From contig CAMBEV010000004.1 in the NCBI GenBank assembly GCA_945865595.1, positions 1-38,808 of the forward strand: DNA of 38,808 nt, given 5' to 3'. The DNA is from Nannocystis exedens (GTDB lineage Bacteria; Myxococcota_A; Polyangia; Polyangiales; Polyangiaceae). A program made the translations under genes and the position numbers. The notes under the pieces are model-generated. The model was not told where the DNA came from. It did not search any database and worked only from the letters and a program-made list of their open reading frames with translations. This document shows positions 4,689-37,181 of this stretch, piece after piece. Position 1 is the first letter of the stretch; every line of letters starts with the position of its first letter.

Positions 4689-8421
<3,733 letters not shown>

Positions 8422-14273: not shown

Positions 14274-14801
14274 TCAGTGTGGCGAGGCCGGTGAAGGCCA
14301 GACCAACGCGCCTGCGACATCCACATGCGTCAGGTACAGCCGCAGGTCGAACTCGAGCTCGTGGTAGTTGGGCTCCATGTGCGTGCACAGCTGGTAGAAC
14401 GCCTTGTCGTGTTCGCGTTCTTTGAGGTGCGCGAGTTCGTGTACCGCGATCATCTTGAGAAAGTCGATCGGTACGTCCTTGAAGAGCGTCGCGACGCGAA
14501 TCTCGCGCTTCGATTTGAGCTTGGTGCCCTGCACGCGCGACACTGTCGTGTGCGTGCCGAGTGCGTGGGCGATGACGTGGAGCTTGTTGTCGAAGGCAAC
14601 CTTGCTGAGCGGCGCGGCGTTGCGCAGGTACGCGCTCTTGAGGCCCTGAACGTAATCGTAAAGCGCGTTGTCGGTTCGAATGGTGTGTGTTTGTCGGTAC
14701 TTGCGCAGAAGTAGCTCACCAAGTTGACCTTTCGCCACGAGCGCACGCACCTGGGCTGTGACGTGCTCCGGGTAGGCGGCGAGGTATTTCAAGGGGGCCA
14801 T
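14274..14801 (-). CDS. YgjP-like zinc metallopeptidase domain protein
   Basis: 175 residues, cytoplasmic, no signal. It carries the YgjP/DUF45 (PF01863-type) pattern: KREIRVATLFKDVP, then MIAVHELAHLKEREHDKAF with His121, Glu122, His125 and the later His131, and YHELEFDLRLYL near the C-terminus. The HELxH...H arrangement is that of gluzincin-like 'WLM/YgjP' proteins. The natural substrate of this group is not settled; peptidase or nucleotide-related roles have been proposed. It is divergent from the secreted-protein gene at 14899, with 97 nt between the starts, and 223 nt upstream of the outer-membrane-type gene. Confidence 0.82.
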   Translation of the reverse strand: MAPLKYLAAYPEHVTAQVRALVAKGQLGELLLRKYRQTHTIRTDNALYDYVQGLKSAYLRNAAPLSKVAFDNKLHVIAHALGTHTTVSRVQGTKLKSKREIRVATLFKDVPIDFLKMIAVHELAHLKEREHDKAFYQLCTHMEPNYHELEFDLRLYLTHVDVAGALVWPSPASPH

Positions 14802-14898
14802 GGCGTGGCCTCAGCGTACTCCGCGGCCGGCCGGGTGCCGCCCGAGAATATTCGGCCGCACCCCACAAGATTTCCTCGGAACGGCCGTTGATCCAACC

Positions 14899-15648
14899 AT
14901 GACCCTCATTCGAACCGCGCTCGCGCTCGCCACGGTGCCCCTCCTCACGGGTATCGCACATGCGGCGCCAAAGGTGCGTGCCAAGGAGTGCGCACGCTAC
15001 GACGTCACGGCGATGGGTACGTCGCTCGCCAAGCGCATGGAGCTCGGCCTCAAGGCGCCTGCCTACCAGCTTGCATCACCAGGCTCTACGGCGGCAGGAC
15101 CGATCGCGGCGCCCGGTTTTGACAAGTGGGCGGCCACGCTGACCGGGTATCCGCAGGGCGAATTCGTTGACTTGCTGCAGGCCCCGCACCGAAGGTACCG
15201 GCTCGACGGTGATGCGAGTAAGCCCGCGTTATCACGAGGAAAAACACCTTACGTAAACTGGATGGGAGGCACGGAATTGTACGGCTTCTCGGTTGAGCTG
15301 AACTCCAAAGGCTACGGGTCGCCGGCGTACGGCCTCAACGATTACAAATCGGCGGCGCGGCGGGTGGACTGGACCCCTCCGTTGCCTCGCAATTCGGCGC
15401 GCGTGATCGTTTGCGGCTTTCAGCTTCTCGGCGAGCCGTACAAGAAGGGGAACAAGGTGGACTTCCTTTTCGAGCAAGTGTTCGACGTCACCTCGAAAAC
15501 CGCGGCCAACCGTCCACTCTTTAGTCAGCGATTTGCCACGAGGAGCCTCCCCGTGGGTGTGATCGTCATTGGCGAGTTTGCGGCTGGCGACACCACGACA
15601 GAAGTCGTTGTCGAATTCGACAAGCGAAAAACACTCCCGAAGAAGTAG
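14899..15648 (+). CDS. Secreted protein of unknown function
   Basis: 249 residues from the ATG at 14899, which starts a clear signal peptide (MTLIRTALALATVPLLTGIAHA). The 33-codon upstream extension of the frame lies in the divergent promoter region and is not protein-like. The mature part has two cysteines, many Tyr/Gly/Lys residues and no family motif that I recognise; the second half looks beta-rich (VDFLFEQVFDVTSKT, LPVGVIVIGEFAAGDT). No good Shine-Dalgarno is seen. It lies 47 nt before the flippase gene in the same direction and may be co-transcribed with it, which would suggest a periplasmic or surface role, but that is only context. Confidence 0.65.
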   Translation: MTLIRTALALATVPLLTGIAHAAPKVRAKECARYDVTAMGTSLAKRMELGLKAPAYQLASPGSTAAGPIAAPGFDKWAATLTGYPQGEFVDLLQAPHRRYRLDGDASKPALSRGKTPYVNWMGGTELYGFSVELNSKGYGSPAYGLNDYKSAARRVDWTPPLPRNSARVIVCGFQLLGEPYKKGNKVDFLFEQVFDVTSKTAANRPLFSQRFATRSLPVGVIVIGEFAAGDTTTEVVVEFDKRKTLPKK

Positions 15649-17192: not shown

Positions 17193-18571
17193 CCCTTCAG
17201 GCGGAGATAGACAAAGAGCCCCACGAGGAATGCTACGCAAGCGCCGCAGACGCGGAGTACTTCCTTTTGGCTGAGCGTCACCTCGAAGGTCGGGTCGGCA
17301 CGTCGCGCGACGCCGTAAAGGCCGCCTGACAGCCCAAAGTAAGTCCAGAGGACCGGATGATAGGCGAACGACAAGAACGTGATGCCCGTGAGCATGCCGC
17401 AATAGGCGACGAACAGGCCGTTTCCGAGTGCTCTGACGCGGGCGTCGAGGCCGGCCGGCGGGCGAAATGCGACAACGTAAGGAATCTTGACAGACGTGTA
17501 GACGATGAGCGCCCACATGAACATGCCGGGAAGGCCGAGCTCTGCGGCTTCGAGCATGTATGAGTTGTGAGCCGTGAGGCCGACCGAAGTGTGATCGTTG
17601 TATTGCCCAATACCAACGCCGAGCGGGTAGTGGCGTATCATGTCGAACCCTTCGCGAAGCAGCTCCGTGCGTTCATCGGCAGACGCTTCAGCTTCGGCGC
17701 CGCTTCGCCCACCGAGCATGATGCCGGGAGCGGCGGCCATTGCGCCGAGGATCGCGCCCTTCCAGCCGAACCGCTTGATGAACGCCGCAAGGAAGACGAT
17801 CCCGATAACGAGTGTGCCGCCACGTGACTGCGAGAGGATGACGCAATACAGGGTGACCCCGACTGCGAAGGCCAAGAAGAGGTGTCGCCACCAACTTTTC
17901 ATGAGCCCGTGAAATGCGAACGCGAACGCGAGTGCGGCCGAGCACGTCATTGCAAGCTCGTTTGGATCTTGCAATTTGCCGCGCCAGCGAACACGGCCAG
18001 CGGTCGAAAATGTGCCGGCAATACCCGATTTTTCGCAAATATAGGGAGGATCCAACTCGAAGATCTCGTTTGGGTCCCAGCAATCGCGACGGGTCTCGCA
18101 TTCGCCACCGACCGATTTTGCAGGGCCGGCCTCGTCGATGTCGTCCTGCTCGAGTTCAATGCACAGAAACGGGCTGCGCCCTTGTTTCACCGCCGCGGTT
18201 GCGAGGAACAGCGCAATACCAAGCATGACCGCAGTGAGGCCCGCGAACCGAGCGGGTGTTCGCGAGCCGTACGTCACGGTCACGTAAAAGATCGCAGAGA
18301 ACAGCACGTCGGCGAGGACGACGCTGAACCCCTTGCTCCCCCCTAGTTGCAAGATCGTCGAGACCAAGCACCAGATGATGTACGGGATGATCAGTTTCGC
18401 CTGGGGTGTCTTGGCATCCTTCTGCTTGCCGGTTCCAAATTCAGTGGCGACACCGATGAACCCGACAGCGATGACGATGTGTAAAAATGGCAAGCCCGCC
18501 AAGCCCGACACGAACTCCTGCGGCCGCACGAAGATGACGACGAGAAGGAAGATGGCCGCTACGTATGCCAT
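17189..18571 (-). CDS. O-antigen ligase / Wzy-type polymerase family protein
   Basis: 460 residues with about 10-12 membrane helices. The Wzy_C/WaaL-type features are a conserved short motif in the centre (VILSQSRGGTLVIGIVFL) and the large periplasmic loop with ERTELLREGFDMIRHYPLGVGIGQ followed by LTAHNSYMLEAAELGLPGM, where Arg, Gly-x-Gly and His-Asn-x-x-Leu are family hallmarks. A cysteine-containing periplasmic insert (CETRRDCWDPNEIFELDPP) is less usual. It would join repeat units made in the same locus, or ligate the polymer to an acceptor. It starts 3 nt after the heparinase-like gene at 18575, so the three minus-strand genes form one operon. Confidence 0.87.
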   Translation of the reverse strand: MAYVAAIFLLVVIFVRPQEFVSGLAGLPFLHIVIAVGFIGVATEFGTGKQKDAKTPQAKLIIPYIIWCLVSTILQLGGSKGFSVVLADVLFSAIFYVTVTYGSRTPARFAGLTAVMLGIALFLATAAVKQGRSPFLCIELEQDDIDEAGPAKSVGGECETRRDCWDPNEIFELDPPYICEKSGIAGTFSTAGRVRWRGKLQDPNELAMTCSAALAFAFAFHGLMKSWWRHLFLAFAVGVTLYCVILSQSRGGTLVIGIVFLAAFIKRFGWKGAILGAMAAAPGIMLGGRSGAEAEASADERTELLREGFDMIRHYPLGVGIGQYNDHTSVGLTAHNSYMLEAAELGLPGMFMWALIVYTSVKIPYVVAFRPPAGLDARVRALGNGLFVAYCGMLTGITFLSFAYHPVLWTYFGLSGGLYGVARRADPTFEVTLSQKEVLRVCGACVAFLVGLFVYLRLKG

Positions 18572-18574
18572 CGG

Positions 18575-21025
18575 TCAGTTGACGCTCACGCGGCCGTCAC
18601 TGTCGACCGCAAAGGAAAATGTCGCGAAAGAGCCCGACTCTGTTCTCGTAATTCGTACCAAAAACCGGTCGTTGTCACGCTTGACGCTCGCCGCGTATTG
18701 GCCGTTCAAGTCGCTGACAACGTGCATGGCTGCGATAGCCGGAACCGCATAGGTAAGTTCGTTTACGTTTGGCGTAATCGCATTGCCTGTAACGACGAAT
18801 GCGCTTCGCCCACCCTCGAGCGACAGCTGCGTCGCGACAAAGTCGCCCTCGGGCTTTGCGACCGGCGCTGCGAGTGCGGTTGCGATCGCGCCCATCGGTT
18901 TTGATGCGCGCGCGTCAAAGACCGTGAGCCATCGGTGAGCGGCCTTGCCATCGGTGGGGTGTGCCTCGAGGCGAAACACCTTCTTGCGCTTGTTCACGTC
19001 AACGCTGTCGATGCGCATTGCGCCGGGTGCAAGAAACTCAACGCGACCACGGTAGAGGGCGCCGTCCTCGACATCGAATGCGCGGCCACCAATGGGCACG
19101 GGTGTCTTTGCGACGTGGAATGCCATCCACTGGTCGCTGCTCGGGCTTGTCGCTTCGGCGACGTCATCAATGACAAACGTAGACGGTCGCACGAAGGCGA
19201 TTTCACGGCGCCACGCCTTCACGATCGGTGCGCCGCCCTCAGACGCGGGGGGATAGTACGCATCTTCTAGCCCGTGGCCTTGGACGATGGTCGCTGCTCC
19301 GGCAAGTGACTTGACGGTCAACTTTGTTTTCGAACGCCACGGCGTAACGGGGATCTGTCCATAACGCCGAGCCTTCACGTAGAAGACGTTGAAAATGGTG
19401 CGATTTCGCTCGGTATCGTGCTCGCCATTGTCACCGAAGAGATCGGCGTAGAGAAAGTCGCCGTTGTCCTCGCCGTCGTTCGAGCCCGGCGTGTGCTCGA
19501 GGAGGGCGCCAACGGTGTTGACCAGAAATCGATCGCGACCGCGCGCCACCGTCAAACTGCCCTGGTCGAAGTACATTTCACCTGAGGCGGGATAGTTCAC
19601 GCAAGCGCCGGAAGTGAACGTCGAGAACACCGCCGACTCGCTCCAGTCAGAGCGCATCGCGACGGTCTGCATGCCGCTCGCGACGAACGTGGTCGACTCT
19701 CCGCCATCGGGCTTCTCTTCGGGCGCCCATGGGTCCCAGAAAAGAACATCGCGCCACGCGTGTTGTTCCTCGAGGTTGGCGGCGGTCTTGCTCCGAACGT
19801 CGCGCGCGTAGGCGTGAAACGAGGCGGCGCGTGGATCGTGTTGCGAAGCGAGCACGCCCGAAACGAATCCGAAGAGGTGAGGGTTCGCCGCCGACGATGA
19901 ATCACCTGTCGCGAGGTCGCCGCGATCATCGATGCGGTCGCGGGAAGGCCAGGTGAAGTGTTTGAGCTGGTCGGCCTGGTCAAGTGGGAAAACGTAACCC
20001 GATTTGAACAAAGAGATGCCGCGCGCAGACTCTGCCGCCAGGGCAGGGAGGGCCATATTCATGGTCGCGAATGCGCCATAGCGCCAGCCCTCTGGCCACC
20101 CGCCGCCGCCCATGTAACGGCCATAGAAGGGAACGACCATGCCGCCGTGTTGAACGGTCAACCAACTGGACCACAGGGCGTCGCCCCGCGGATCATCTCC
20201 AGCGAGCGCAAGTCCGCCGAGTCCCTTGGCCGCGTAGAAGCCAGCGAAGTAGTTGCCTTGCGGGTGCTCCCGCTCGAACCCCTGTTTCTCGAACGCGTCT
20301 GACCAGCGAACGATCGCATCGGCGACACGCTTCTTCTCGGCGTCGGAAAGGAGATCGTGGAGCCAGTCGTAGCCGAGTGCCATGCCGGTACCGTAGAACC
20401 GAATCGGATAGCCGCTGTTGCGAAGCGGATTGGCCGCCGGATCGCTCATCGCCATCAGGATCTGCTTCGCTGTCGCCCGGTGTTCGGCCGCCCGCTTGCC
20501 ATCGGTCTTGGCGAAGAGCTTCCCGCATAACGCTTGGCTTGTGATCAGGGCGAAGTACATTTCGCCTTGATAGCCCTCGGTGATCGTCGGGGCAGGGGCG
20601 TCGACGTTCTTTTCAGTGGCCTCAACGTGCCCGCTGCGGAAGCGTTTGCAAAATGCGTCGAGCGCTCGAAACTCAGGGGTCGCTTCGCGCATGTGTCGCT
20701 CGGCGAGCGCGAGGCGGTCGCTCGTGAGAATCAGCCGCGGCCTGCCTGCGACGCGGTTGGGCGAGGTTGCATACTCGGACTCAGGCCTTGCGGATTCGAC
20801 CTTAAACGCGTCCTCAGTGTCGGTGCCGCCGTTGTCGACGACGCGCTTTCTGAGCTTGTAAGCCGCGCCGCCTCCCGCCACCAATACGCCAGATAGGGTT
20901 ACAAATAGCGCAGCCTTCCGAGCGCGTGAAAGGCGTCGGCCCAGCGTCAGGGTGAGCGCGCCGCTAACACCCGCTGCGGCGCCGGCCAAGAGGGCGAATT
21001 TCAGTAGTGCGCGCTTCGACGGCAT
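18575..21025 (-). CDS. Heparinase II/III-like protein, divergent active site, membrane-anchored
   Basis: 816 residues from the ATG at 21025; the upstream 32 codons overlap the previous gene and are rejected. Two hydrophobic segments near the N-terminus (about 6-28 and 36-53) suggest anchoring in the inner membrane. The alpha-toroid domain follows (GYQGEMYFAL, GYDWLHDLLSDAEKKRVADA, GNYFAGFYAAKG, GGGWPEGWRYGA), and from about 440 a beta-sandwich domain. Where its neighbour has HQRLDKGHF, this one has GEMYFDQGS: the His position is Glu483 and only Asp487 is kept. This may change or abolish lyase activity. It would act on an acidic polysaccharide of the same locus, with 7 nt to the upstream and 3 nt to the downstream gene. 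Confidence 0.8.
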   Translation of the reverse strand: MPSKRALLKFALLAGAAAGVSGALTLTLGRRLSRARKAALFVTLSGVLVAGGGAAYKLRKRVVDNGGTDTEDAFKVESARPESEYATSPNRVAGRPRLILTSDRLALAERHMREATPEFRALDAFCKRFRSGHVEATEKNVDAPAPTITEGYQGEMYFALITSQALCGKLFAKTDGKRAAEHRATAKQILMAMSDPAANPLRNSGYPIRFYGTGMALGYDWLHDLLSDAEKKRVADAIVRWSDAFEKQGFEREHPQGNYFAGFYAAKGLGGLALAGDDPRGDALWSSWLTVQHGGMVVPFYGRYMGGGGWPEGWRYGAFATMNMALPALAAESARGISLFKSGYVFPLDQADQLKHFTWPSRDRIDDRGDLATGDSSSAANPHLFGFVSGVLASQHDPRAASFHAYARDVRSKTAANLEEQHAWRDVLFWDPWAPEEKPDGGESTTFVASGMQTVAMRSDWSESAVFSTFTSGACVNYPASGEMYFDQGSLTVARGRDRFLVNTVGALLEHTPGSNDGEDNGDFLYADLFGDNGEHDTERNRTIFNVFYVKARRYGQIPVTPWRSKTKLTVKSLAGAATIVQGHGLEDAYYPPASEGGAPIVKAWRREIAFVRPSTFVIDDVAEATSPSSDQWMAFHVAKTPVPIGGRAFDVEDGALYRGRVEFLAPGAMRIDSVDVNKRKKVFRLEAHPTDGKAAHRWLTVFDARASKPMGAIATALAAPVAKPEGDFVATQLSLEGGRSAFVVTGNAITPNVNELTYAVPAIAAMHVVSDLNGQYAASVKRDNDRFLVRITRTESGSFATFSFAVDSDGRVSVN

Positions 21026-21032
21026 CTTGGGA

Positions 21033-23279
21033 TTACTTAAGTGAGCAACCGGGCGCTTTGAACGCCAGCGTTCCGGCCTCAGATGCGGTGTGCGATCCGC
21101 CTGCCGTGATTTTGACCGCACAGGCGTCGCCTGACTTTGTAACCGCGACTGAGTACTTTGCCGTCGGCTGCAAGTCTGCGACGACGTGACTCGCTACACC
21201 CGTTGACACTGAATAGGAAAGCGCGCCGGTGCCGCGGGCAAAGATGTAGGCCTCGTCAGAGACTTCTGCCCCATCGAGGCTTACGCCTGCAATGTGCGTT
21301 GCCGTTGGGTGCTTTGTCTCGGCCGCGCCGACGGTCATCACGCTGAGAAAGGTACGTTCGGCTTTGCCCTTTGGACTCGGGACTTCGACCCTTCGACCCA
21401 TGAACCCCTCGTAGGGATGATCATTCTCATGCCAGAGATCGCTCTTGCTTGTGGGCTCCTTCAACACGTTCAACTGAGCGCCGGTTGGCACGAGCATGGT
21501 GAAACGCGCGCTCGAGCCTCGCTGCTTGTGCGTGAAGCTTGAGCCCGAGACCTCGGGCACTTGTGTTGGGTGGATGCTAAACGTAACTGCGTACGATCCC
21601 TTTGCGACCTTGACTGTGTCAAAAACCACGAGGCGCGCGCTCGTATCGCCTGAGATCGCGCGGCGAGAAAACACGAAATGGCGAAACATGCGCTCCACGC
21701 TTCGACGCTTGGTCCACTCAAAGTCAGCGGAGCGATAGGCGTCCGTGAGGTCGGCTCTCGCATAAACGTAGTCGGTTGCATCTTCGAACCGGTCGACCTT
21801 GGTGTCGACGCCCGAGGCGCCTTGACTTGGCGCGTAGTCAAGATGACCCGCGTGGTCCTTATCGACGCGGTCGTCGACGAGAATCGCATTGGTTCCGAGA
21901 GTTGACGATGAGCCATACGCTGCCGACGCCACATAGATGTCGTCGCCACCGCGAACGAGCGCGAAGTGGCCTTTGTCGAGGCGTTGGTGGTCGGCATTGA
22001 ACTGCGGCCCGTTGGACGACGCGAACCATACGGCGTCTTTCGTCCATGAGGTGCGAGCGAAGACGGTGCCTGTCCCTTTCGCGAGGTAGCTCGTTTCGTT
22101 CTGTGGCGAGAGGCTGCCTCCGCTCGGGTCTTCAGCAACCACGCGAAGCCAGTGCCATTCGCTTTCGGGTTCGGGCTCATTGCGAGCCAGAAACACAGCG
22201 TGAGCGCGCTGCTTCGCGTCGAACACGAATGAAGGCCCGAAGGTCGTTCTGCCCGAGAGCGTGGGCGGCTTCGAACCCCAGTCGCCGACGTCAAACATGT
22301 GAATCGCGTCGGGCCATCGTGCGTGGGTCAGGTACGGAATCGTCTCGTGGAGCCAAGGCAGTGCAACTTTGGTTTTTGAGAGTCGTGACTCGGCATCAAC
22401 GTAAGCGGAGTGAATGAGCGTTACCAATGGGCCGTACTGCCAGCCCTCGGGCCACTCGCCCCCGCTAATTTGCGCAAACTGGGGTGCTACGCGCTCTCGA
22501 AATTCGGCACGGGCCTTTTCTCGCATCGCGCCGGCGCGAGGGTCGTCGCCCTCAAAAGCCATTCCATAGAATGCGACCGCGCCAAAATAGCCCGCGTGGT
22601 AATTGTAAAGCGGCTTGTCGTTTACATATCCGTGTGGATCGGTTGTTCCGCCGTACCACGCGATCCAGGCCGCAATTTGATCGGCGGCGCGCTTCTTGAG
22701 TGCACCGTCAACATACTTGGTGGTGCGCATCCAGTCGTAGAGAACCGAAGCGAGTGCGCCTCGTGTTCGTATCGAGTAGCCGTTGTCATGGTGAACGGTC
22801 TTGAGGTCGGCCTTGCCGTCACCGACGCGTTCAAGGTCGCTCACCAGTGCCTTGAGATAAAGCGCCGCTGCGCGTCCGAAGCGCTCTTCCATCGTCACGT
22901 GGTAGCAAAGCGCGAGGTCGAGACCGACGTTCGCCCAATCCCAAGCTTCGTAACCGGGCAAGCGCCATTCGGGCTGGCTCGCGGCGTCACATGTTGCGAG
23001 TAGCAGCTGCCACGCTTTGGTGTTGTGGCTTGAGGCCTGCTTGGCGCGTCCAAGGCGCTCCGAAGTGAGAATGATGCGCGCGACCTGGGGGCCGACGTAT
23101 GCCGGTTCTGGGCCGGGCGGCGTTGTCGACACGTCGGGCGGCGAAATGCGTGGGCCCGAAGCGACACCCGTTGCGAGGGGCACCGGTGGTTTTGGCCCTG
23201 GCCATTCGTCGTTCCTGCAGCCGGGGATGGCGGTGGCGGTCGAGACCGCGAGGAGTAAAGGGCAGGCAAGGGTGCGCAT
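21033..23279 (-). CDS. Heparinase II/III-like polysaccharide lyase, lipoprotein
   Basis: 748 residues beginning with a lipoprotein signal (MRTLACPLLLAVSTATAIPGC, Cys21) and a Pro-rich linker. The helical toroid (about 65-320) contains YDWMRTT, LYNYHAGYFGAVAFYG (Asn226, His228) and GGEWPEGWQYGPL. The beta-sandwich domain holds FNADHQRLDKGHFALVRGG with His431, Asp435 and His438, matching the conserved N-x2-H-x3-D-x-G-x-F block of heparinase II/III-type lyases. It should cleave or trim a uronate-containing polysaccharide at the cell surface or periplasm. It is the first gene of the hep-hep-wzy operon and diverges from the export gene at 23342. It is clearly a paralogue of the next gene. Confidence 0.84.
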   Translation of the reverse strand: MRTLACPLLLAVSTATAIPGCRNDEWPGPKPPVPLATGVASGPRISPPDVSTTPPGPEPAYVGPQVARIILTSERLGRAKQASSHNTKAWQLLLATCDAASQPEWRLPGYEAWDWANVGLDLALCYHVTMEERFGRAAALYLKALVSDLERVGDGKADLKTVHHDNGYSIRTRGALASVLYDWMRTTKYVDGALKKRAADQIAAWIAWYGGTTDPHGYVNDKPLYNYHAGYFGAVAFYGMAFEGDDPRAGAMREKARAEFRERVAPQFAQISGGEWPEGWQYGPLVTLIHSAYVDAESRLSKTKVALPWLHETIPYLTHARWPDAIHMFDVGDWGSKPPTLSGRTTFGPSFVFDAKQRAHAVFLARNEPEPESEWHWLRVVAEDPSGGSLSPQNETSYLAKGTGTVFARTSWTKDAVWFASSNGPQFNADHQRLDKGHFALVRGGDDIYVASAAYGSSSTLGTNAILVDDRVDKDHAGHLDYAPSQGASGVDTKVDRFEDATDYVYARADLTDAYRSADFEWTKRRSVERMFRHFVFSRRAISGDTSARLVVFDTVKVAKGSYAVTFSIHPTQVPEVSGSSFTHKQRGSSARFTMLVPTGAQLNVLKEPTSKSDLWHENDHPYEGFMGRRVEVPSPKGKAERTFLSVMTVGAAETKHPTATHIAGVSLDGAEVSDEAYIFARGTGALSYSVSTGVASHVVADLQPTAKYSVAVTKSGDACAVKITAGGSHTASEAGTLAFKAPGCSLK

Positions 23280-23988: not shown

Positions 23989-24366
23989 TCATTGGGCCAG
24001 TCGCAGCCCGCAGTGCTTCGCGAAATGCCGGAAGTCCTTGTCGCGCGTCAGAAGGGGAACCTGATGATCGATGCAACTCTGTGCGACGAGCGTATCGGCG
24101 AGACGCGCCTTCAATCGTCGCGCGAGGAGACCCGCGCGTGTTTCCCCTGCGCGTTCCCAATAGCCTTCTAGAATTTCGAGCCGTGGAATCGCAATCAGTC
24201 GCCTTTGCAGGTCGGGCGTCATGCCTCTTGCGCACAAGATTTCTGAGAGCACGACAGGTGGCAGCGCGAGTATTCCCTGGAGAAGGGCGCGATCGAGGAA
24301 CTCAAGATCTTCGCCGTTGCCGCCGGCGAAATACGCCACAAGTACGCTGGTATCGGCGGCGATCAT
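23989..24366 (-). CDS. vapC: PIN-domain ribonuclease toxin (VapC)
   Basis: 125 residues from the ATG at 24366, which overlaps the antitoxin stop by 4 nt (ATGA). The four acidic positions of PIN nucleases are visible: Asp in AADTSVLVAYF near the N-terminus, Glu in VVLSEIL, and two Asp residues in RLADTLVAQSCIDHQVPLLT and RDKDF. VapC toxins cut specific RNAs when released from VapB. The frame is open 18 codons further upstream but those overlap the antitoxin. It is convergent with the export gene, with 26 nt between the stops. Confidence 0.88.
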   Translation of the reverse strand: MIAADTSVLVAYFAGGNGEDLEFLDRALLQGILALPPVVLSEILCARGMTPDLQRRLIAIPRLEILEGYWERAGETRAGLLARRLKARLADTLVAQSCIDHQVPLLTRDKDFRHFAKHCGLRLAQ

Positions 24367-24566
24367 TTGTCTTCGCGAAGCGAAGTGACGTCGAGCTCGA
24401 GCCGTACCTTGCCGCGCCACTTGCGGATCTCCTCACTCGCTCGGGTCGCTGCGACCGCACGAAGACCCTCGCGAACCACTTCTGACACACCAAGCCCCGA
24501 GATGCCCTGCGCATCGCGGAGGAGATCTTCATCGACAACGATCGTGATTTTCTTGGCAGCGCCCAT
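24363..24566 (-). CDS. vapB: VapB-type antitoxin (ribbon-helix-helix)
   Basis: 67 residues. The N-terminal strand KKITIVVDEDLL followed by helices around GLGVSEVVREGLRAV is the ribbon-helix-helix DNA-binding pattern; the C-terminal KWRGKVRLELDVTSLRED is the toxin-binding tail. It is coupled to vapC by an ATGA overlap. Two matched inverted repeats lie directly before its ATG and are the expected autoregulatory operator. Confidence 0.87.
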   Translation of the reverse strand: MGAAKKITIVVDEDLLRDAQGISGLGVSEVVREGLRAVAATRASEEIRKWRGKVRLELDVTSLREDK

Positions 24567-35396: not shown

Positions 35397-36512
35397 ATGA
35401 TCTACCTCGACTGGAACGCAACAACGAAGCCCCTGCCCGAAGTGGTCGCCGCCATGGCGCAGGCTGCTGGCGAAGCGTGGGCCAACCCCTCGAGCGTGCA
35501 TGGTCTCGGTCGCAGGGCGGCATCGTGCGTCGAGCATGCGCGCGCGCTCGTGGCGGGACTCTTCGCGGCCGATTCGCGTGACGTCGTGCTCACCTCGGGA
35601 GGCACTGAAGCGAACAACCTCGCCATCCGTTCGGCGTTCGCACAAGGTAAAGGCACTTTACTGACGAGCCGACTCGAACACCCGAGCGTGACGCGCGTGG
35701 CAGAAGCGCTTGAGCGCGAAGGCACCGCGAGGGTTCGTTGGCTCGAGGTCCACGAGGACGGCACGTTGAATGTCGACGATGTGGCGCTCGCGTTTACCGA
35801 AGCGAACGACGTACGGCTTGTAACCGTACAAGCCGTGAACCACGAGACCGGCGTGATTCAGCCGGTCGAAGCGGTTGCAGCGATGGCCCACGCGAAGGGC
35901 GCGCTCGTGCACGTTGACGCGGTGCAAGCCGTCAGTAAAGTTGACATTCTGCCATGCTCCGCGGACACAATTGCCATCGCAGCCCATAAATTTCGAGGTC
36001 CGAAGGGCGTCGGCGCGCTCGTGCACCGGCCAGGTGTGCGCCTCGTCGCCATCATGGGCGGCGGTAGCCAAGAGCGCGGCATTCGCCCTGGGACTGTGGA
36101 TCCGGTCGCGGCGGCAGGCATGGCGGCGGCGATCGCATGGGTGCGAACGTCGGGCCGTGCGGACTATGCGGCGATCGAAGTGGAACGTGACGCCCTTGAG
36201 GCAGCGTTGCTCGCAATGGCGGAAGGCGCATTGCGAAACGGGACGGCGGCGCGAGCGCCACACGTCAGCAATCTTTACTTTCCGCGCGCGGTCGGGCCCG
36301 AGCTCGTTGCGGCGCTCGACCTTGAGGGCGTGTGCGTCTCGAGCGGCAGTGCGTGCAGTGCGGGAACCAGCGAGCCTTCGCCCGTGCTCACCGCGATGGT
36401 GGGCGCGACGCGTGCCATGGCGAGCGTGCGTATTTCGTTGGGTGAGGTGTTCACGACTGAAACACGCGAGCAGGTGACGAGCGCGTTCGTGCGTGTGCTG
36501 GCGAGGTTGTAA
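35397..36512 (+). CDS. Cysteine desulfurase (NifS/IscS family)
   Basis: 371 residues, a PLP enzyme that takes sulfur from cysteine for Fe-S clusters or tRNA thiolation. Landmarks: IYLDWNATTKP at the start, SGGTEANNLA for phosphate binding, His95 stacking on PLP, HVDAVQA with Asp174 and Gln177, PLP-Lys198 in AAHKFRGPKG, and the catalytic Cys320 in SSGSACSAGTSEPSPVL. The Cys-loop has the group I (NifS/IscS) form. It starts 3 nt after the kinase gene, without an IscU-type scaffold in the window, so its sulfur acceptor is unknown. Confidence 0.93.
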   Translation: MIYLDWNATTKPLPEVVAAMAQAAGEAWANPSSVHGLGRRAASCVEHARALVAGLFAADSRDVVLTSGGTEANNLAIRSAFAQGKGTLLTSRLEHPSVTRVAEALEREGTARVRWLEVHEDGTLNVDDVALAFTEANDVRLVTVQAVNHETGVIQPVEAVAAMAHAKGALVHVDAVQAVSKVDILPCSADTIAIAAHKFRGPKGVGALVHRPGVRLVAIMGGGSQERGIRPGTVDPVAAAGMAAAIAWVRTSGRADYAAIEVERDALEAALLAMAEGALRNGTAARAPHVSNLYFPRAVGPELVAALDLEGVCVSSGSACSAGTSEPSPVLTAMVGATRAMASVRISLGEVFTTETREQVTSAFVRVLARL

Positions 36513-36517
36513 TCGAC

Positions 36518-36538
36518 ATGGTATGGATAATGGTATGG
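36518..36538 (+). promoter_or_regulatory. Direct repeats at the antitoxin start
   Basis: ATGGTATGG occurs twice, at 36518-36526 and 36530-36538, 12 nt apart, and the second copy covers the likely start codon at 36535. This is a plausible binding site for the small DNA-binding antitoxin encoded here, placed where binding would block the gene's own expression. Confidence 0.45.
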
Positions 36539-36807
36539 CAACGAAGAAAATCACGGTCACCATCGACGCCGAGCAATTGCGCGCGATCCGAGCGATCGTC
36601 GATGAGCGTCACGCGAAGAGTGTGTCGGCCTTCGTACAACATGCCATTGCAATATCGTTGAGCGACGTTGCGGGGTGGGGAGCCCTCCTCACGGGTGCGC
36701 TCAAAGAATCAGGAGGCCCGATGACAAAAGCCGAGCGCGCATGGGCTGATGGCGTTCTGGCTGAGCGTGGCGATCCCGCGCAGGCAAAGCGACGAAGGGC
36801 AGCGTGA
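36535..36807 (+). CDS. Antitoxin of a PIN-toxin module (ribbon-helix-helix type)
   Basis: 90 residues from the ATG at 36535; the in-frame ATG at 36523 is the alternative and no Shine-Dalgarno helps. MATKKITVTIDAEQLRAIRAIVDERHAKSVS is split at the turn by VDERHAKSVSAFVQHAI, giving the strand-helix-helix form of CopG/VapB proteins. The C-terminal half (KESGGPMTKAERAWADGVL) is the toxin-binding tail. Its stop overlaps the GTG of the PIN toxin by GTGA. It starts 22 nt after the desulfurase stop. Confidence 0.78.
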   Translation: MATKKITVTIDAEQLRAIRAIVDERHAKSVSAFVQHAIAISLSDVAGWGALLTGALKESGGPMTKAERAWADGVLAERGDPAQAKRRRAA

Positions 36808-37181
36808 GCGGCCTCACCCTCGATGCTGGGGCTCTTATCGCGCTTGACCGAGATGATCGTCGCGTTCTCGTGCTGCTCGCTCGCGCGAAAGAAGTGGGCG
36901 CGCGCGTCACAATCCCCGCGACGGCGCTTGCTCAATCGATTCGGCGCCCGCAAACGCAAGCGCGCCTCGCGAGGCTTGTTCGTCAACCCACGACGGATCT
37001 CGCGTCACTTGATGGTCCCGACGCCACCCGCGTAGGCCTGCTCCTGGCCGCTACGCGCACGAAAGATATTGCCGATGCGCACGTCGTCATTTGCGCACGC
37101 AGAGCGCGACAGACCATTGTGACGAGCGACCCGGATGACCTGCGCCGACTCGATCCTGACGCCTCGCTCGTGGTGCTGTAG
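36804..37181 (+). CDS. PIN-domain toxin (VapC-like)
   Basis: 125 residues from a GTG coupled to the antitoxin stop. The fold markers are TLDAGALIALDRDDRRV (first Asp), VTIPATALAQSIRRP, DIADAHVVICARR (Asp) and TIVTSDPDDLRRL (Asp). At the second acidic position most VapC proteins have Glu; here the helix reads ALAQSIR, as in a known-looking PIN subgroup with Gln there. It is probably an RNA-cutting toxin held by the upstream antitoxin. A second PIN module follows only 81 nt later. Confidence 0.85.
   Translation: MSGLTLDAGALIALDRDDRRVLVLLARAKEVGARVTIPATALAQSIRRPQTQARLARLVRQPTTDLASLDGPDATRVGLLLAATRTKDIADAHVVICARRARQTIVTSDPDDLRRLDPDASLVVL

Follow-up and report, generated by a model that had tools for sequence, protein, structure and literature searches.

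Two heparinase II-like paralogues, one with glutamate at the catalytic histidine position, in a predicted Wzx/Wzy-dependent exopolysaccharide locus of Myxococcota

Introduction

Why should a polysaccharide operon carry two heparinase-like genes side by side, and what might the second one do when the catalytic histidine of its fold is replaced by glutamate? This question is raised by a stretch of 38,808 nucleotides from Nannocystis exedens (contig CAMBEV010000004.1, here referred to as the window), which is one contig of a 3.5-Mb assembly in 423 contigs; its near relatives are labelled both Myxococcales and Polyangiaceae. The trimming and tailoring enzymes of Wzy-dependent exopolysaccharide loci are little known. 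A preliminary description of the window paired an active lyase with a binding or scaffolding partner that would act with it on the nascent polymer. The results below leave this pairing as one possibility, not the best supported one.

Results and Discussion

Organization of the locus

The features under study are listed in Table 1. The spacing described before was recovered from the ORF coordinates, with a gap of 7 nt (TCCCAAG) between the lipoprotein and its paralogue and one of 3 nt (CCG) between the paralogue and the Wzy_C gene. Family searches placed a MOP flippase on one side of the operon and an OPX export protein on the other. Together with the Wzy_C polymerase they form the combination that marks a Wzx/Wzy-dependent exopolysaccharide locus, and the polysaccharide operon proposed earlier is confirmed. 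In the window itself no uronate-specific gene adjoins the operon; a UDP-sugar dehydrogenase was found in the genome. A GTG start at 21121, given for the paralogue by the mechanical ORF call, is unlikely because it overlaps the lipoprotein gene.

Several other features were observed. A PIN-domain protein (VapC-like; 23989-24420, minus strand) lies between the OPX gene and leuS, and two small overlapping ORFs at 36493-37181 (plus strand) resemble an antitoxin/PIN toxin pair by eye, with no Pfam match. A long ORF with collagen-like repeats (Pfam Collagen, 2e-13) occupies 4689-6548 of the minus strand; its start is uncertain because of its overlap with a 5'-nucleotidase-like gene (6439-8421). Directly beside wzx in two sister genomes (L061:3597-4886 and L062:9210-10499) is a 429-aa protein without family match, which might serve the OPX protein as a beta-barrel partner. 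In the window it was not recognised at the equivalent place, which is taken up by 14800-15648.

Table 1. Features of the locus, in window coordinates
Feature	Start	End	Strand	Remarks
Wzx-like MOP flippase	15696	17192	+	convergent with wzy
Wzy_C / O-antigen polymerase-ligase family gene	17189	18571	-	ATG at 18571; Pfam 3e-15
Membrane-hairpin-anchored paralogue (predicted), 816 aa, Glu-type clade	18575	21025	-	ATG at 21025, stop TGA at 18575
Paralogue block SGEMYFDQGS, residues 481-490 of 816 aa	19556	19585	-	from codon positions
Heparinase-II-like lipoprotein, 748 aa	21033	23279	-	ORF 23279-21033, stop TAA
Lipoprotein active-site block NADHQRLDKGHF, residues 428-439 of 748 aa	21963	21998	-	from codon positions
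Short OPX (EpsY-like) polysaccharide export lipoprotein	23342	23962	+	divergent from operon

Fold and relationship of the two proteins

Neither protein matches Pfam, and PF07940 (Hepar_II_III_C) is not found above its curated cut-off in either of them or anywhere in the genome. Their profiles match each other with E = 2e-84 at 25% identity (hhalign), and on this measure the two are true paralogues, as had been supposed. Sequence profiles together with AlphaFold models and Foldseek place both in the lyase fold composed of an (alpha/alpha)6 toroid and a beta-sheet, and for most of their length the models match heparinase II, PL15, PL35, exo-heparinase, DS-epimerase 1 and PL17. Both possess the toroid and antiparallel beta-sheet that characterize the heparinase II/III-type fold (PL12/15/17/21/33/35/39), so that structure prediction agrees with the identity first suggested for them. 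Neither carries the full residue set of PL21 heparinase II proper (His202, His406, Tyr257 and the metal site His408/Asp425), and the position of His202 is occupied by Tyr in both. Judged from these comparisons, the pair is a variant form of the heparinase II-type fold that Pfam does not register, and its setting, exopolysaccharide biosynthesis, is an ordinary one.

The lipoprotein as a candidate lyase

In published work on this fold, a Tyr and a His form the conserved apparatus, a second Tyr caps them, and the carboxylate is neutralised by an Asn. What each residue does depends on whether D- or L-uronate occupies +1, and the same set occurs in DS-epimerase 1 (PMC12088678, PMC11848413, PMC8006597). 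A catalytic His is given for each fold member in Table 4 of PMC12088678, PL12/15/17/21/35/39 included, and in PL35 its substitution by Ala abolishes activity (PMC12088678).

The lipoprotein has a lipobox-like N-terminus (...AIPGC21) and a weak match to NCBIfam HepB. A profile built from its relatives finds heparinase II with E = 1e-20, its DHQ(H/R)xDxGHF block aligning on the NHQHQDAGAF block of that enzyme. His431 falls on the position published as His406 (the numbering being inferred from the chain offset), and Tyr282 and Tyr455 align with the two tyrosines of heparinase II, which is also the best Foldseek match of the AlphaFold model (pLDDT 71; E ~2e-26, TM 0.64). The residues His431, Asp435 and His438 are where they had been described, and Asn226, Tyr227, Tyr282, His431 and Tyr455 of the active site are kept. 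The catalytic triplet Tyr/His/Asn (PMC12088678) is represented by Tyr282, His431 and Asn226 and is conserved in the relatives. The retention of Asn226, Tyr282, His431 and Tyr455, which upholds the lyase-like site seen earlier, makes the protein a plausible uronate lyase, and we consider it likely that it is a lyase. For the catalysis, the substrate and the periplasmic location we infer that it is most likely a periplasmic lyase cleaving the organism's own uronate-containing polymer. Its role would be trimming, chain-length control or the clearing of stalled chains, like that of AlgL for alginate.

Both metal ligands of the lipoprotein are lost (His to Arg433, Asp to Ala451) in the window and in two sister genomes (L061:10208-12448 and L062:1657-3894). 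Within the genus this loss is limited to the three genomes where the pair is contiguous; a fourth, G001 (86% complete), keeps both ligands, and the paralogue was not found in it. A genome of another genus, G023, has both genes and keeps the ligands of the lipoprotein. As one event only, the coincidence of ligand loss with a contiguous paralogue is only a hint of interdependence.

The paralogue and the Glu-type clade

In the hhalign alignment Glu483 of the paralogue lies exactly on His431 of the lipoprotein. The AlphaFold model (pLDDT 81, pTM 0.82) matches PL15 alginate lyase (5e-23), heparinase II, PL35 and DS-epimerase 1 in Foldseek, with TM 0.5-0.6. The profile matches the PL15 alginate lyase Atu3025 at 1e-7, and in the HMMER alignment Tyr316 falls on Tyr365 of Atu3025 and Tyr259 on its His311. 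Asn258, Tyr259 and Tyr316 are kept, Glu483 replaces the catalytic His and Asn503 the metal Asp, so that Tyr316 and Asn258 are what remains of the catalytic triplet. In the region of the second catalytic Tyr the paralogue has Phe and its clade F/Y/W; an insertion lies next to this position, and the alignment is less secure there. Of the two changes reported before, both are present in the 816-aa frame and that of Glu483 is confirmed as one at the catalytic His, but Ser490 in place of His438 is rejected as a catalytic loss, for the column varies among H, N, S and G across relatives and Ser at that position is common in the fold family.

Two marginally hydrophobic stretches (residues ~7-28 and ~37-58) with a basic loop between them lie at the N-terminus; this arrangement leaves the side of the membrane uncertain, and as the stretches are marginal the topology is a prediction only. 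A membrane anchor was rejected as a defining trait, G023 and others having lipoprotein-like N-termini.

We then placed the paralogue on a tree of 66 relatives, a quick tree without bootstrap and unrooted, which thus gives no direction for the His/Glu change. The active-site Asn and the acid/base Tyr are invariant in 66/66. The column of the catalytic His holds His in 39 sequences outside the paralogue clade and 5 inside it, Glu in 20 and other residues in 2. The clade itself (25 rows, SH-aLRT 98) has Glu in 20/25 and, at the metal-Asp position of heparinase II, Asn in 24/25. Its members come from Myxococcota, a Lysobacteraceae MAG, other proteobacterial MAGs, a betaproteobacterial MAG, Amycolatopsis, Opitutia and Acidobacteria, and the nested group of 5 from Acidobacteria has His at the Glu position, within a GHE motif. 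Three state changes at this column suffice on the tree. Between the window and the sister genomes G002/G003, the paralogue has a dN/dS of ~0.11 and the lipoprotein one of ~0.12; with synonymous sites close to saturated, it is the similar dN (0.14-0.19 and 0.11-0.21) that points to similar purifying selection on both genes. Pseudogene decay of the paralogue was rejected on the open frames and the dN/dS ~0.11. Since Glu occurs in most of a supported multi-phylum clade with a nested His group, Glu483 itself is not decay either, and as read from tree and alignment the Glu branch is old, unnamed and well conserved.

The Acidobacteria members with His (L084, L085, L086, L087 and L088) are the C-terminal domain of secreted proteins of ~1900-2250 aa; in L084 and L085, the two tested with Pfam, the N-terminal parts contain Big_2 and Ig-like domains. 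G023 has four Glu-type copies in all, among them a tandem duplicate (L066:6828-12250) ~580 nt apart and away from recognised polysaccharide genes.

What could such a protein do? Were it catalytically dead, and its task to bind or scaffold the nascent polymer on behalf of an active lipoprotein, the loss of the His, the Phe at the second Tyr position, the changed metal-ligand positions and the tight gene coupling (7 and 3 nt) would all be accounted for; in fact the changes in the second-Tyr region and at the two metal ligands could mean loss of catalysis. However, Glu, Asn and Tyr are conserved clade-wide with His in one nested subclade, equally strong purifying selection acts on paralogue and lipoprotein, and members of the clade occur as lone genes or in other polysaccharide clusters that lack the lipoprotein. 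The mere scaffold suggested by the preliminary description is therefore rather unlikely in our view. It is far less probable that the clade consists of glycoside hydrolases on a lyase fold, with Glu483 and Asp366/367 or Glu312 as the catalytic pair. Further conserved carboxylates do exist (Asp367 in 25/25, Glu312 in 23/25), but Glu312 and partly Asp367 are common to the His-type relatives and thus not specific to the Glu clade, and the acidobacterial members have His at the Glu483 position. Moreover, the solved structures that match the paralogue in Foldseek, with E up to 1e-9, are lyases and one epimerase, with no hydrolases.

Since Glu at the His position can be a base, we infer that an active enzyme is more economical than a dead scaffold which keeps Asn and Tyr. 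The paralogue is probably an enzyme with altered chemistry and not a dead copy, although we put catalysis itself at even or slightly better. With Asn and the acid/base Tyr kept and Glu for His at the proton-handling position, it would probably carry out a modified uronate chemistry, as a lyase of other specificity or by a C5-epimerase-like proton abstraction, and it may do so at the inner membrane, on the nascent polymer that the lipoprotein would also act on. A bolder proposal, by analogy, is that the Glu clade represents undescribed polymer-modifying enzymes that share the fold of heparinase II and work with Wzy-dependent export, with a conventional lyase as partner in this locus; this we regard as unlikely but worth stating. 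Such enzymes might be carboxylate-base lyases or bacterial polymer-level uronate C5-epimerases related to DS-epimerase, the pairing then resembling AlgG and AlgL, a guess held with equal reserve.

Distribution of the pair and its association with wzy

A relative of the window wzy was found in 29/379 genomes of the phylum sample. In at least four of the 29 (G000, G002, G020 and G164) a heparinase-like gene stands beside it and in at least two more (G010 and G387) on the same contig 15-26 kb away, lower bounds because the assemblies are drafts. The paralogue clade is present in 4/379 genomes (G000, G002, G164 and G138) with E below 1e-250.

The contiguous pair with wzy was seen only in three genomes of one genus (the window, G002 and G003), with a looser version in G023 in the order paralogue - GT2 - wzy - lipoprotein, and a constant association of the pair with wzy is rejected. 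In G020, G070, G071 and G164 the lipoprotein lies beside wzy without a paralogue partner, and in G001, of the same genus as the window, OPX and lipoprotein are at a contig end. OPX, an orthologous wzy and lipoprotein occur together in G020, G023, G070, G071, G164 and the window's genus, joined by wzx in G070, G071, G164 and this genus; flippase, Wzy_C and OPX genes are together in G002, G003, G070, G071 and G164. Members of the paralogue clade are found beside sugar transferases, glycosyltransferases or Wzy_C in L089, L091 and L093 (Glu-type) and L087 (His-type), and in these genomes the lipoprotein profile found only the clade member, nothing of the lipoprotein's own strength. As each is found at such loci without the other, each protein can serve a polysaccharide locus alone. 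The distributions of lipoprotein and paralogue are largely independent, and the obligate link with wzy that had been put forward for checking does not hold.

Could the adjacency to wzy be incidental, and both proteins be secreted catabolic enzymes for an external polysaccharide? Many relatives do stand alone as genes or take the form of secreted multi-domain proteins that carry Ig/Big_2 domains, and a gene of this kind adjoins wzy in few of the sampled genomes. However, OPX, wzy and lipoprotein stay together in several genera though wzy identity falls to 34-41%, and the 7-nt and 3-nt gaps argue for a single transcript, so we consider a catabolic role improbable. Our reading of the window, as part of a Wzx/Wzy-dependent exopolysaccharide locus with two heparinase II/III-fold envelope proteins that are both probably enzymes, is on sequences and models an even call. 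Searches of the literature on heparinase with Wzy, exosortase or exopolysaccharide clusters, and on pseudo-lyases, found nothing relevant.

On this reading, Wzy-dependent exopolysaccharide loci, myxobacterial and other, would gain a component that has gone unrecognised and is silent in Pfam. A multi-phylum clade with fixed Glu and a nested His branch offers a natural experiment in C5 proton handling by this fold, and a bacterial relative of dermatan sulfate epimerase may come out of it.

Comparison with known systems

Heparinase II (PL21, PDB 2FUQ) and the PL15/PL35 lyases share the two-domain toroid and beta-sheet fold of both proteins. Their Tyr257/365/246 corresponds to Tyr282 of the lipoprotein and Tyr316 of the paralogue, and His406 of heparinase II to His431 of the lipoprotein and to Glu in the paralogue. 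Unlike these enzymes, the pair has no Pfam match; overall identity to them is below 20%, and the metal ligands His408/Asp425 of heparinase II are Arg433/Ala451 in the lipoprotein and Tyr485/Asn503 in the paralogue.

Dermatan sulfate epimerase 1 (PDB 6HZN) has the same fold as the paralogue (Foldseek E ~1e-17) and acts on uronic acid at the polymer level during biosynthesis. It uses His205, Tyr261 and Tyr473 and has His450, whereas the paralogue has Tyr259, Tyr316 and Glu483.

Export of the EpsY/EpsX type proceeds through a composite OPX/beta-barrel translocon in Myxococcus xanthus (PMC9601211). The short OPX protein of the window is close to EpsY. To our knowledge, no heparinase-like pair has been reported with the EpsY/EpsX export locus of M. 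xanthus, and our literature searches turned up none.

AlgL is a PL5-family lyase whose gene lies inside the alginate biosynthesis operon, a synthase-dependent pathway. As there, a putative lyase gene is embedded here in a biosynthesis operon, with a predicted envelope location, but the pathway is Wzx/Wzy-dependent and two paralogues are present.
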